The notes under the pieces: generated by a model | Told to the model about the DNA's origin: nothing | Databases searched by the model: none | The model's input: only the letters and a program-made list of their open reading frames with translations | Shown: positions 7,176 to 12,558 of the stretch, piece after piece | Position numbering within the stretch: the first letter of the stretch is position 1 | Layout: every line of letters starts with the position of its first letter | NCBI GenBank assembly: GCA_040218145.1 | Contig: JAVJQK010000127.1 | Location: 124,001-188,000 of the forward strand | Direction of reading: 5' to 3' | DNA length: 64,000 nt | Source of the DNA: Sandaracinaceae bacterium | GTDB lineage: Bacteria > Myxococcota_A > Polyangia > Polyangiales > Sandaracinaceae | Made by a program: the position numbers and the translations under genes

Positions 7176-8627
7176 GTGCAGGTGGCCCCCGTGCAGCAGT
7201 CCTCCGCTCCGTCCTACGCCGCTGGCGTGGTCGTCGGGTCGCGCTTTCGCCTCGAGCGCAAGCTCGGAGAGGGCGGTATGGGCGAGGTGTTCGAGGCCGT
7301 CGATCTCCAGACCGACGCCCGCATCGCCCTGAAGCTCATGCGCCGGGAGCTGGCCGACGACGACCGCGCGGTGGAGCGCTTCCGGCGCGAGGGCGCCGCG
7401 CTCGCGGTGGTGCAGCACCCGGCCATCGTGCAGATCCGCGAGGTCGGGGAGCTCGACGATGGGACGCTCTACCTCGCGATGGAGCTGCTCGAGGGCGAGA
7501 ACCTCTCGGTGCGGCTCGGGCGGGTCGGGCCGATGCCGCCGGCGCAGCTGCTCTCGATCGTGCGCAGCCTCTGCGACGGGCTCTCGGCGGCGCACGCAGC
7601 GGGCATCGTTCACCGCGACATCAAGCCCTCCAACATCCACCTGACGGACGGGGACGGGCCGGATCAGGACGGTCCCGGCGCACAGGTGAAGCTCGTCGAC
7701 TTCGGGGTCGCGCGCGTGCGCGGCTTCTCCAAGATGACCAGCAGCGGGCTGGCGGTCGGGACGGTGCGCTACATGGCGCCCGAGCAGCTGAGCGGCGCCG
7801 CGGTCGACGAGCGGGCCGACCTCTACGCGCTCGGGGTCGTGCTCTACGAGGCGCTGAGCGGCGAGCACCCCTTCGAGCGCACGAGCGGCGAAGATCCGAT
7901 CGGCGCGGTGCTCGTCGGCCGGGCGACCCCGCTGTCGAGCCTGCGCCCGGACCTCTCGCCCGCGATCACCCGCGTGGTGCACAAGGCGATGGCGCGGCTC
8001 GCGACGGAGCGCTTCGCGTCGGCCCGCGCGCTCGCGGACGCGTTCGGGGCCGCCGTGCACGCGCCGCCGGGGTCCGCGCCGGAGCTCACCGCGCAGAGCC
8101 CTGCGCGCCCCGCCCCGATGGATCCCGCGCTGGCCGAGACCGCGCTCGCCCGCCCCGCGCCGAGCTCGGCGCCGTCGGAGATCCCCAGCCAGTCGCAGGT
8201 GCGCCCCAAGCGCTCGACGGCGAAGAAGAAGAGGCGCCCACCCGTCTACCTGCTCCTCCCGCTCCTCGTCGGGGCCTGCCTCGTGCCCACCTTCGGCATC
8301 GCCGGCTTCGTCGGCTGCGGGAGCTGGATGACGGACCTGCAGGTGCGGATCGCGATGCAGAACGTCCGGTCCACCATCGACGAGGATCCCGTCGCCTTCG
8401 CCCCCTACGCGGCCAGCCTCGGCCGCCTCGAGGCGCTGCACGAGCAGGATCGGGTCAACCTCTTCGCCGCCGCCGCGTTCAACAAGCGCGTGCAGGACGC
8501 GCTGCAGCGCGACGGGCGGGTGAGCCGGGACGAGCTGCCGCGAATCATCGGCGTCGTCGACGACATCGTGGCCCGCGGCGGCGAATACGACATCGACACC
8601 TACACGAAGATGGCCGAGCCGAACTGA
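7176..8627 (+). CDS. Transmembrane Ser/Thr protein kinase
   Basis: A 483-residue Hanks-type kinase. The catalytic domain (about 22-290) has the glycine loop GEGGMGEVF, IALKLM, HRDIKPSN, DFGVAR and APEQL, so all catalytic residues are present. A Pro/Ala/Ser-rich juxtamembrane linker follows, then KKKRRPP as a positive-inside anchor, one hydrophobic segment (about 355-378) and about 100 extracytoplasmic residues of unknown fold that could sense an external signal. Start GTG 7176; a second GTG at 7191 is possible. It stands alone, separated by short gaps from both neighbours. Confidence 0.92.
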   Translation: MQVAPVQQSSAPSYAAGVVVGSRFRLERKLGEGGMGEVFEAVDLQTDARIALKLMRRELADDDRAVERFRREGAALAVVQHPAIVQIREVGELDDGTLYLAMELLEGENLSVRLGRVGPMPPAQLLSIVRSLCDGLSAAHAAGIVHRDIKPSNIHLTDGDGPDQDGPGAQVKLVDFGVARVRGFSKMTSSGLAVGTVRYMAPEQLSGAAVDERADLYALGVVLYEALSGEHPFERTSGEDPIGAVLVGRATPLSSLRPDLSPAITRVVHKAMARLATERFASARALADAFGAAVHAPPGSAPELTAQSPARPAPMDPALAETALARPAPSSAPSEIPSQSQVRPKRSTAKKKRRPPVYLLLPLLVGACLVPTFGIAGFVGCGSWMTDLQVRIAMQNVRSTIDEDPVAFAPYAASLGRLEALHEQDRVNLFAAAAFNKRVQDALQRDGRVSRDELPRIIGVVDDIVARGGEYDIDTYTKMAEPN

Positions 8628-10343: not shown

Positions 10344-10392
10344 GACCGACGCTTTTTTGACCGGGCCGGGCTCGCCGGGCGATGTGGGAGAC

Positions 10393-11427
10393 ATGTCTCG
10401 ACGTGCCCTCGGCGTGCCCGCGTGCCTCGCGCTGCTGCTCCTGAGCGGCGGCCTGACGAGCCGCGCCGCCAGCGCGCAGGAGGACCAGGCGGCGGGGCAC
10501 GCGCGCGGGCTGGCGCAGACCGAGGAGGGGCTCGCCTACACGATCGCGCCGGGGGACACCCTCAGCGAGATCGCGGTCCGCTTCGACGTCAGCCTCGAGG
10601 ATCTCCTGCGCTGGAACCCCGGCCTCTCCGCGGACCGCATCCGGGACGGCCAGCGGATCCGGATCCTCAACGGCCTGCGTCGGGTGGTGCACACGGTCGC
10701 GCGCGGGGAGAGCCTCTCGCACATCGCCGCGCGCTACGAGGTGCAGGTCGCGGAGATCCTGGACTGGAACCGCCGGCTCCGACGCGACCACGTCCGCGTG
10801 GGCCGGGAGCTGGTGATCTTCACCCCCGTCCCCGAGAGCCGCAGCCGCTCGATCGGGCTCCCCCACGACGGGCGGCTCGTGCAGGCGAGCCAGCTCCCGC
10901 GGCGGCATCCGTCGTTCTACGTGCGCCGCCCGGGGCGCGCGTGGGCCACCGACGAGACCGTGCGATGGATCGTCGAGGGCTACGAGGCGCTCCGTCGGGC
11001 CGACCCGAGCACCCCCGCCATCGAGGTCCACGACCTGTCTCTCCGGCAGGGTGGCCCCATGCACGGACACCGCAGCCACGAGTCCGGGCGCGACGCCGAC
11101 ATCGCCTACTTCCAGAGGGGCTGCGCCGACCCCTGCCGCTTCCGCCGCATCGGCCCCGAGCACCTCGACGTGGAGCGGCAGTGGCGGGTCTTCTCGCACT
11201 GGCTCGAGAGCGGGCAGGTCGAGGCGATCTTCATGGACATCCACCTCCAGCGCGTCCTCTACGAGCACGCCCGTGACCGCGGGGTGAGCCGCCACGACCT
11301 GAGCCGCTGGTTCCAGTACCCCCGCGACGTCGACGACCGCTACGGGGTGATCCGGCATCATCCGCGGCACGCCGACCACTTCCACGTCCGCTTCATCTGT
11401 CACGACACCGACGAGGAGTGCCGCTGA
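10393..11427 (+). CDS. LysM-containing murein endopeptidase (MepA/peptidase M74 type)
   Basis: A 344-residue secreted protein starting at ATG 10393, with a signal peptide ending near ASAQ. Two LysM peptidoglycan-binding modules follow: YTIAPGDTLSEIAVRF (about 45-90) and HTVARGESLSHIAARY (about 98-145). The C-terminal domain (about 165-340) matches penicillin-insensitive murein endopeptidases, with zinc-site motifs MHGHRSHESGRDADI and HADHFHVRF. The family cuts D-alanyl-meso-DAP crosslinks in the periplasm. E. coli MepA lacks LysM modules, so this is a cell-wall-targeted variant. The LysM repeats and zinc motifs are seen directly; the bond specificity is inferred. Confidence 0.88.
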   Translation: MSRRALGVPACLALLLLSGGLTSRAASAQEDQAAGHARGLAQTEEGLAYTIAPGDTLSEIAVRFDVSLEDLLRWNPGLSADRIRDGQRIRILNGLRRVVHTVARGESLSHIAARYEVQVAEILDWNRRLRRDHVRVGRELVIFTPVPESRSRSIGLPHDGRLVQASQLPRRHPSFYVRRPGRAWATDETVRWIVEGYEALRRADPSTPAIEVHDLSLRQGGPMHGHRSHESGRDADIAYFQRGCADPCRFRRIGPEHLDVERQWRVFSHWLESGQVEAIFMDIHLQRVLYEHARDRGVSRHDLSRWFQYPRDVDDRYGVIRHHPRHADHFHVRFICHDTDEECR

Positions 11428-11478: not shown

Positions 11479-12558
11479 ATGACCCGCTTCGTCCAAGGCA
11501 CCGTCCTCAAGAGCCCGGTCTCGAAACGCCGCTACGAGCTGTCCCACGTCATCGGGCACGGCGGCTACGGCAAGGCCTTCGAGGCCCTCGACATCAAGGC
11601 CAAGAAGCGCGTGTGCCTGAAGTACACGCTCGACCAGACGAGCTGGCACCGCGAGAGCTACTTCGGCGAGCTGCTCAAGGGGAACAAGCGGGTCATCCAG
11701 ATCTACGACTCGTTCCCCCTGATGCCGACCCGGCCGGCCCGGATCCGCTACTGCCTGGTGCTCGAGCTGGCCGAGCACGGCGCGGTGGCCGACTACCTCA
11801 CCCGAACCCAGAAGCCCTGGCCCGAGGCGCGCGCCCGGCGCGAGATCATCGCGCTGCTGAAGCTCCTCGATCAGCTCCACGGCGGCAGCGCCACCCACCG
11901 CGACATCACCCCGTTCAACATCTTCGTCTGTCGGAGCGGCACGCTGAAGCTCGGCGACTTCGGCATCGCGCGCCACGAGCTCGCCGGCCGCTCGACCCGG
12001 CCCGAGGCGTTCAACCCCGACTACGTCACCAGGGGCTTCATCGACGCCGAGCACCGCGCGTGGACCGCGGTCGACGACGTCTTCCAGATGGGCCAGCTCC
12101 TGGCCATGCTGCTCGCGGGCGAGTCCAAGGCGACCTTCAAGGTCCGCGAGATCCGCAATCTGGATTGCGGGCCCGAGCTGAAGAACGTATTGCGGCGCGC
12201 GATCGGCCCGCGCGGCAAGCGCTACCGCGACGCCTGGGAGATGCTCCAGGCCCTGCGCGGCGAGTCCGAGACCAAGCCGAGCCCGCTCCAGAGCCTGCGC
12301 AACAAGACCCTCGTCTTCGGCGGCGCCCTCGAGCTCGAGCGCTTCGACGCGGAGCTGCTCGCGATCGAGGCTGGCGCCCAGATCGCCAACCGCGTCACCA
12401 AGGACGTCGACGTGGTCGTCGTCGGCCGAGCCCGCAAGCAGAAGCGCGGCGGCTCCCGCCCCGCCAAGCTCGTGACCGCCGAGCGTCTCATCAAGCAGGG
12501 CCACCGCCTCCACATCATCGGCGAGTCCGAGTTTCGCCGCCTCGTCCGCGAGGACTGA
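11479..12558 (+). CDS. Protein kinase-like domain fused to a C-terminal BRCT domain
   Basis: A 359-residue soluble protein. Residues about 15-265 form a Hanks-type kinase fold: glycine loop GHGGYGKAF, lysine in VCLKYTL, catalytic loop HRDITPFN and DFGIAR. The catalytic-loop lysine is Thr and the APE motif is altered to DAEHR, so activity may be atypical. Residues about 273-356 match a BRCT domain of the NAD-ligase type: KTLVFGGALE, EAGAQIANRVTKDVDVVVVG and ESEFRRLV. BRCT domains bind phosphopeptides or DNA ends, which suggests a role near DNA damage or replication, though this is inference. No membrane segment is present. Confidence 0.82.
   Translation: MTRFVQGTVLKSPVSKRRYELSHVIGHGGYGKAFEALDIKAKKRVCLKYTLDQTSWHRESYFGELLKGNKRVIQIYDSFPLMPTRPARIRYCLVLELAEHGAVADYLTRTQKPWPEARARREIIALLKLLDQLHGGSATHRDITPFNIFVCRSGTLKLGDFGIARHELAGRSTRPEAFNPDYVTRGFIDAEHRAWTAVDDVFQMGQLLAMLLAGESKATFKVREIRNLDCGPELKNVLRRAIGPRGKRYRDAWEMLQALRGESETKPSPLQSLRNKTLVFGGALELERFDAELLAIEAGAQIANRVTKDVDVVVVGRARKQKRGGSRPAKLVTAERLIKQGHRLHIIGESEFRRLVRED

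Follow-up and report, generated by a model that had tools for sequence, protein, structure and literature searches.

The eukaryotic checkpoint kinases Chk2 and Rad53, which act in DNA damage signaling, join an FHA domain, a phosphate-reading module, to a protein kinase. The BRCT domain is a module of the DNA-repair type that usually grips phosphate groups at broken DNA. In prokaryotes, the phosphate pocket of BRCT domains has been linked to the phosphates of nicked DNA or DNA ends (PMC10504179), and the same pocket serves DNA ends in RFC1 and phosphopeptides or poly(ADP-ribose) in other BRCT domains (PMC6334254). Among bacterial kinases, the Bacillus subtilis Hanks kinase YabT is activated by DNA (PMC3708118, PMC6333020), so an enzyme of this type can be switched on by DNA, and the Deinococcus Ser/Thr kinase RqkA is responsive to DNA damage (PMC6052341).

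Here, we analyzed a gene in a 64,000-nucleotide stretch of a Sandaracinaceae genome (the window) that encodes a protein kinase domain followed by a BRCT domain. The protein shares the fold, G-loop, VAIK Lys, alpha-C Glu, HRD, N, and DFG of the PknB/Stk1-type Hanks kinases (PF00069), but it differs from them in having a Thr for the catalytic-loop Lys and a BRCT tail and in lacking an APE motif and a transmembrane or PASTA part. YabT is likewise a Hanks kinase without an extracellular sensor domain, and we propose it as a functional analogue, not a homologue; it works through a basic juxtamembrane motif and a membrane anchor, not through a BRCT domain. The likeness to RqkA, in which we know of no BRCT domain, is a functional analogy only, and the likeness to Chk2 and Rad53, which carry an FHA domain where this protein carries a BRCT domain, is one of architecture. 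The defense kinases PD-T4-6, Mad6 (MADS), MkoA (Mokosh), and Stk2 resemble it in the kinase part only, and to our knowledge none of these systems has a BRCT domain.

The gene lies on contig C127 of an 11.06-Mb genome (G000) and is an open reading frame of 359 amino acids, with its ATG at position 11479 and its stop codon at 12556 to 12558. An earlier reading of this DNA from the letters alone (the sequence-only reading) had given its position and length exactly. The features that we assign to it are as follows.

11479 to 12558, forward strand: kinase-BRCT fusion gene, 359 amino acids (open reading frame, Pfam, and a second assembly with synonymous-only differences)
11527 to 12258, forward strand: protein kinase domain, residues about 17 to 260, PknB-like fold (Pfam Pkinase and VIA-align to PknB 1o6y)
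11896 to 11919, forward strand: catalytic loop HRDITPFN, residues 140 to 147, in which Thr144 replaces the usual Lys (same Thr in 8/8 members)
11956 to 12078, forward strand: activation segment, DFG (160) through the alpha-F Asp (200), with no APE/SPE motif (alignment)
12259 to 12288, forward strand: variable linker, residues 261 to 270 (27% mean identity, no invariant position)
12289 to 12549, forward strand: BRCT domain, about residues 271 to 357 (Pfam BRCT, hmmsearch of the PDB, and VIA-align)
12319 to 12324, forward strand: GG (281-282) in the place of the TG motif of the phosphate pocket, with Gly282 invariant
12340 to 12342, forward strand: Arg288, invariant, aligned with what we take to be Arg423 of RFC1 (alignment)
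12466 to 12468, forward strand: Lys330, invariant, at the position of the GSKL lysine in LigA and, presumably, of Lys458 in RFC1 (alignment)

The G+C content of the open reading frame by codon position is 0.67, 0.43, and 0.97, a pattern typical of genuine genes. The gene recurs with the same flanks, over 8.8 kb at 98.7% identity, in another assembly of the species (the MAG Sandaracinaceae MED-G138; L009), and the two alleles differ at 12 nucleotides, all of them third-position and synonymous, with no amino acid changes. Thus, the fusion is real and under purifying selection, and an artifact of assembly or reading frame is ruled out.

The whole two-domain architecture was present in seven further distinct proteins, for eight in total. 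They come from a Polyangia MAG (L010), an uncultured bacterium (L011), a MAG labeled Acidimicrobiia (L012, in genome G394), and genomes G355 (L015) and G871 (L027), with a second subfamily (38% identity to the window protein) in G366 (L016) and as a second copy in the genome of L010 (L017). The hosts are Myxococcota, one MAG labeled Actinomycetota, and one unidentified bacterium. The two subfamilies split with full support in a tree, while branching inside the main subfamily is not settled. The family is rare. Among the near relatives of the window genome, only 1 of 56 genomes, the window's own, carries the architecture, and the genome draws gave 4 of 377 for the phylum, 6 of 317 for the class (two assemblies of the window's species included), 1 of 396 for the phylum of the Acidimicrobiia MAG, 1 of 294 for the phylum of L011, and 3 of 376 for a further draw. 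The viral contigs searched gave no relative at all, and the plasmids and phages searched showed similarity to the kinase domain only, with no match to the full architecture; we therefore rejected carriage by phages or plasmids. We also found no description of a kinase-BRCT fusion in the open literature searched; a mention in a BRCT-evolution survey is possible. The sequence-only reading had regarded the pairing as uncommon, and this is borne out, since the fusion proved rare in the genome draws and the literature searched gave no description of it. The fusion is real, rare, and conserved, and it is apparently undescribed, although both of its component domains are well known.

In the kinase part, Pfam Pkinase (PF00069) matched residues 19 to 217 (E = 2.7e-21; 76.6 bits against a curated cutoff of 31.7). 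An AlphaFold model of the whole protein, made with an eight-row alignment (mean pLDDT of 77.7, pTM of 0.70), had Mycobacterium tuberculosis PknB (1o6y) as its best structural match (VIA-align Z of 21.9, rmsd of 2.7, 226 aligned), with low confidence at the activation segment and at the loop preceding Lys330. Residues K48, E59, H140-R141-D142, T144, N147, D160-F-G, and D200 are identical in all eight members, the second subfamily included. The catalytic-loop Lys (HRDxK) of Ser/Thr kinases is replaced by Thr in 8/8 members, and all of them lack the APE motif that normally closes the activation segment. Each of these elements, from the kinase fold with HRD..N and DFG to the Thr for Lys and the lack of a normal APE motif, is as the sequence-only reading had described it.

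We searched the G000 genome for the coding patterns of HRDxTP and HRDxKP, using the reversed patterns as controls, and obtained 13 and 173 matches, respectively, against 1 and 0 for the controls. Eleven of the 13 HRDxTP matches are real kinases, the kinase-BRCT protein included, and an [A/S/P]PE motif is present in each of the remaining 10. The HRDxTP form accounts for about 6% of the HRDx[K/T]P kinases in this genome (11 against 173 HRDxKP; loci L032 to L044), with otherwise normal motifs, and Thr-for-Lys is a recurrent kinase variant or class in G000. The Thr that had been taken as abnormal is therefore present, but its abnormality is weakened by the 10 other HRDxTP kinases with ordinary activation segments, and for the same reason we reject it as the sole argument for a unique or dead kinase. 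Since those kinases keep an APE-type motif, it is the missing APE that sets this family apart, and the altered P+1/APE region suggests that the enzyme may have a narrow, unusual substrate. A conventional Ser/Thr kinase gene (HRDIKPSN, APE present) lies at window positions 7176 to 8627, about 2.9 kb upstream on the same strand.

These departures bear on whether the protein could be a pseudokinase, in which the kinase domain would only bind nucleotide or act as a scaffold and the BRCT domain would do the work. The Thr for the catalytic-loop Lys and the lack of APE in every member are what such a protein might show, but all the residues that bind ATP and Mg and all those for catalysis are unchanged among the eight divergent members, and HRDxTP also occurs in the 10 ordinary-looking G000 kinases whose APE-type motif is intact. 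Active members of the kinase superfamily have lost individual key residues (PMC1821047), so the departures at Thr144 and APE are no proof of a pseudokinase, and we consider this explanation quite improbable.

We found that the C-terminal segment is a BRCT domain, as the sequence-only reading had proposed, by Pfam, by a profile search of the PDB, and by structure prediction, which together exclude a non-BRCT fold. Pfam BRCT (PF00533) gave an E value of 1.9e-4 when the whole protein was searched and 1.1e-5 when the C-terminal 95 amino acids were searched alone (26.1 bits, curated cutoff of 21.3), and it matched seven of the eight family members (best E = 2.2e-9). When a profile of the eight BRCT domains was compared to the PDB with hmmsearch, the best solved structures were LigA (2e-7) and RFC1 (2.9e-7). 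The BRCT domain modeled alone (pLDDT of 80.6) has the BRCT element order beta-alpha-beta-beta-alpha-beta-alpha, and its top structural matches were the BRCT domain of the bacterial ligase DnlJ (LigA; VIA-align Z of 10.2, rmsd of 1.7, 75 aligned) and RFC1 on nicked DNA (Z of 10.0, rmsd of 1.9, 75 aligned). As other folds for this segment, we rejected Card1, Ldh, and AAA_24, whose Pfam matches were single and below the cutoff, while BRCT domains top the matches of the BRCT-only model. Some details of the earlier assignment changed: the domain extends over about residues 271 to 357, and GGALE, which had been listed as a hallmark, is a divergent TG motif that reads VFTGPL in most relatives.

The BRCT proteins of G000 are LigA, the kinase-BRCT protein, and a 604-amino-acid protein (L030; G000:C82, about 118.7 kb) with an N-terminal BRCT domain and a long uncharacterized remainder. 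We aligned the eight family members with RFC1, a LigA of solved structure, and both other BRCT proteins of G000. Gly282, Arg288, and Lys330 are invariant in 8/8 members and fall at the positions that Gly, Arg, and Lys occupy in the phosphate pockets of RFC1 and LigA; in RFC1, we take these to be residues 416, 423, and 458. Six of the eight members keep the Thr of the TG motif at residue 281; the window protein has Gly there, and L010 has Ala. The BRCT domain carries a net positive charge in every family member. Its mean pairwise identity is 48%, compared to 52 to 53% for the kinase and 27% for the linker; because it is about as conserved as the kinase and the linker is not, the BRCT domain is a working part rather than a relic. 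Thus, the BRCT domains of LigA and eukaryotic RFC1 are the closest both by sequence (about 2e-7) and by structure (Z of about 10) and have the same pocket Gly, Arg, and Lys, but the domain described here differs from them in being attached to a kinase, in having a longer, mostly basic loop before the pocket Lys, and, in the window protein, in the loss of the TG Thr.

Because the domain is basic and is most closely related to those of LigA and RFC1, we predict DNA ends as the likelier ligand. We propose, with a probability of roughly 0.4, that the protein is a cytosolic PknB-like Ser/Thr kinase whose single C-terminal BRCT domain, of the LigA/RFC1 type, would bind a phosphate group (the best candidate being the 5'-phosphate of nicked DNA or of a DNA end) and would by this binding place the kinase at broken DNA or switch it on there, in a setting of either DNA damage signaling or defense against invading DNA. 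Three parts of this proposal are inferred: activity of the kinase, DNA and not a phosphoprotein as the ligand of the pocket, and control of the kinase through this binding. The Gly at residue 281 of the window protein and the Ala in L010, in place of the pocket Thr, are a point against the proposal. The sequence-only reading had suggested that phosphorylation or phosphopeptide sensing could be coupled to DNA ends or repair, and the idea that phosphorylation is coupled to DNA ends or to phosphopeptides fits the conserved phosphate pocket.

Since this pocket is shared with BRCT domains that bind phosphopeptides or poly(ADP-ribose), the ligand is not readable from the pocket residues, and phosphopeptide binding is the main rival to the reading of DNA ends. 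The BRCT domain would then bind a phosphoprotein, either its own autophosphorylated copy or a prephosphorylated substrate, for docking or feedback as the FHA domain does in Chk2/Rad53, and DNA would not be its ligand. The Gly, Arg, and Lys pocket is that of phosphopeptide-binding BRCT domains (PMC6334254), the structural matches include TopBP1/Rad4 BRCT domains with bound phosphopeptides (Z of 8 to 9), and the partner kinase domain makes phosphoproteins. However, the nearest domains in sequence and structure are those of the DNA-binding LigA and RFC1, and there is a single BRCT domain here, whereas the well-studied phosphopeptide readers are mostly tandem BRCT domains. We view a phosphoprotein ligand as somewhat unlikely.

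The window gene is flanked by a gene for a LysM/M74 murein endopeptidase (10357 to 11427) and a TetR gene. We found neither a repair gene nor a clear defense gene among its neighbors, and the lack of an adjoining repair gene is a second point against the DNA-end reading of this copy. In L011, a transketolase gene lies upstream of the kinase-BRCT gene, and a conserved operon partner was rejected across the neighborhoods compared. In the window and in L010 (3665 to 4789), which belong to distant genomes, the kinase-BRCT gene has an M74 (MepA-like) peptidase gene as its neighbor, but the orientations differ; the window and L010 genomes have 8 and 15 M74 matches, respectively. In G241, each of the two kinase-BRCT copies has nearby a gene for a lipoprotein with an HExxH-like motif (L010, 2252 to 3349; L023, 10503 to 11630); the two are distantly related, with 26% identity over 219 columns (E = 2e-11).

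The L012 copy, in G394, is surrounded by a dense defense island (G394:C136, about 5 to 42 kb; L052 and L053). On one side of it are PD-Lambda-1 (6e-118), an Hhe/PDC-S37 helicase-nuclease, an Old/Gabija-like ATPase, a helicase, and an endonuclease/exonuclease family protein, and on the other side are LeoBC/LeoA dynamins (4e-121 and 6e-73), a type IV-like restriction enzyme, and a DrmD-like helicase. The island has two LeoA-type dynamins, one of them a LeoBC-LeoA fusion, and a HIT-PLD-helicase restriction enzyme.

The position of L012 makes defense a serious option for that copy and only a hint for the window copy. As an anti-phage defense kinase, the protein would recognize foreign or broken DNA through its BRCT domain and phosphorylate a defense or host target. 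Its sparse, patchy distribution is like that of defense genes, and the kinase domain matches the defense models PD-T4-6 (1.9e-24) and Mad6 (3.5e-23), but PADLOC kinase models match kinase domains generally, and no copy of the full architecture was found on the phages, plasmids, and viral contigs searched. Among the neighbors tested in the window, L010, L011, and L015, there was no clear defense gene, with one weak match (6.6e-5) beside L015. A defense function of the window copy itself thus has no support from its neighbors, and we judge the defense explanation to be unlikely.

Returning to a kinase that is positioned or activated by DNA ends, the protein could be a bacterial counterpart of the DNA-damage checkpoint kinases, that is, a Hanks kinase that would sense 5'-phosphate ends via its BRCT domain and relay DNA breakage or the entry of phage DNA by phosphorylation; we regard this extension as possible but doubtful. 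The protein is small (359 amino acids), so its binding and activity are directly testable. A kinase-BRCT fusion that is conserved would imply that, in some bacteria, a reader of DNA ends or phosphoproteins is coupled directly to the phosphorylation of proteins, as is known chiefly from the checkpoint signaling of eukaryotes. That a rare pairing of domains has been kept in distant bacteria points to a bacterial kinase that is so far undescribed and that might act where DNA is damaged or foreign.
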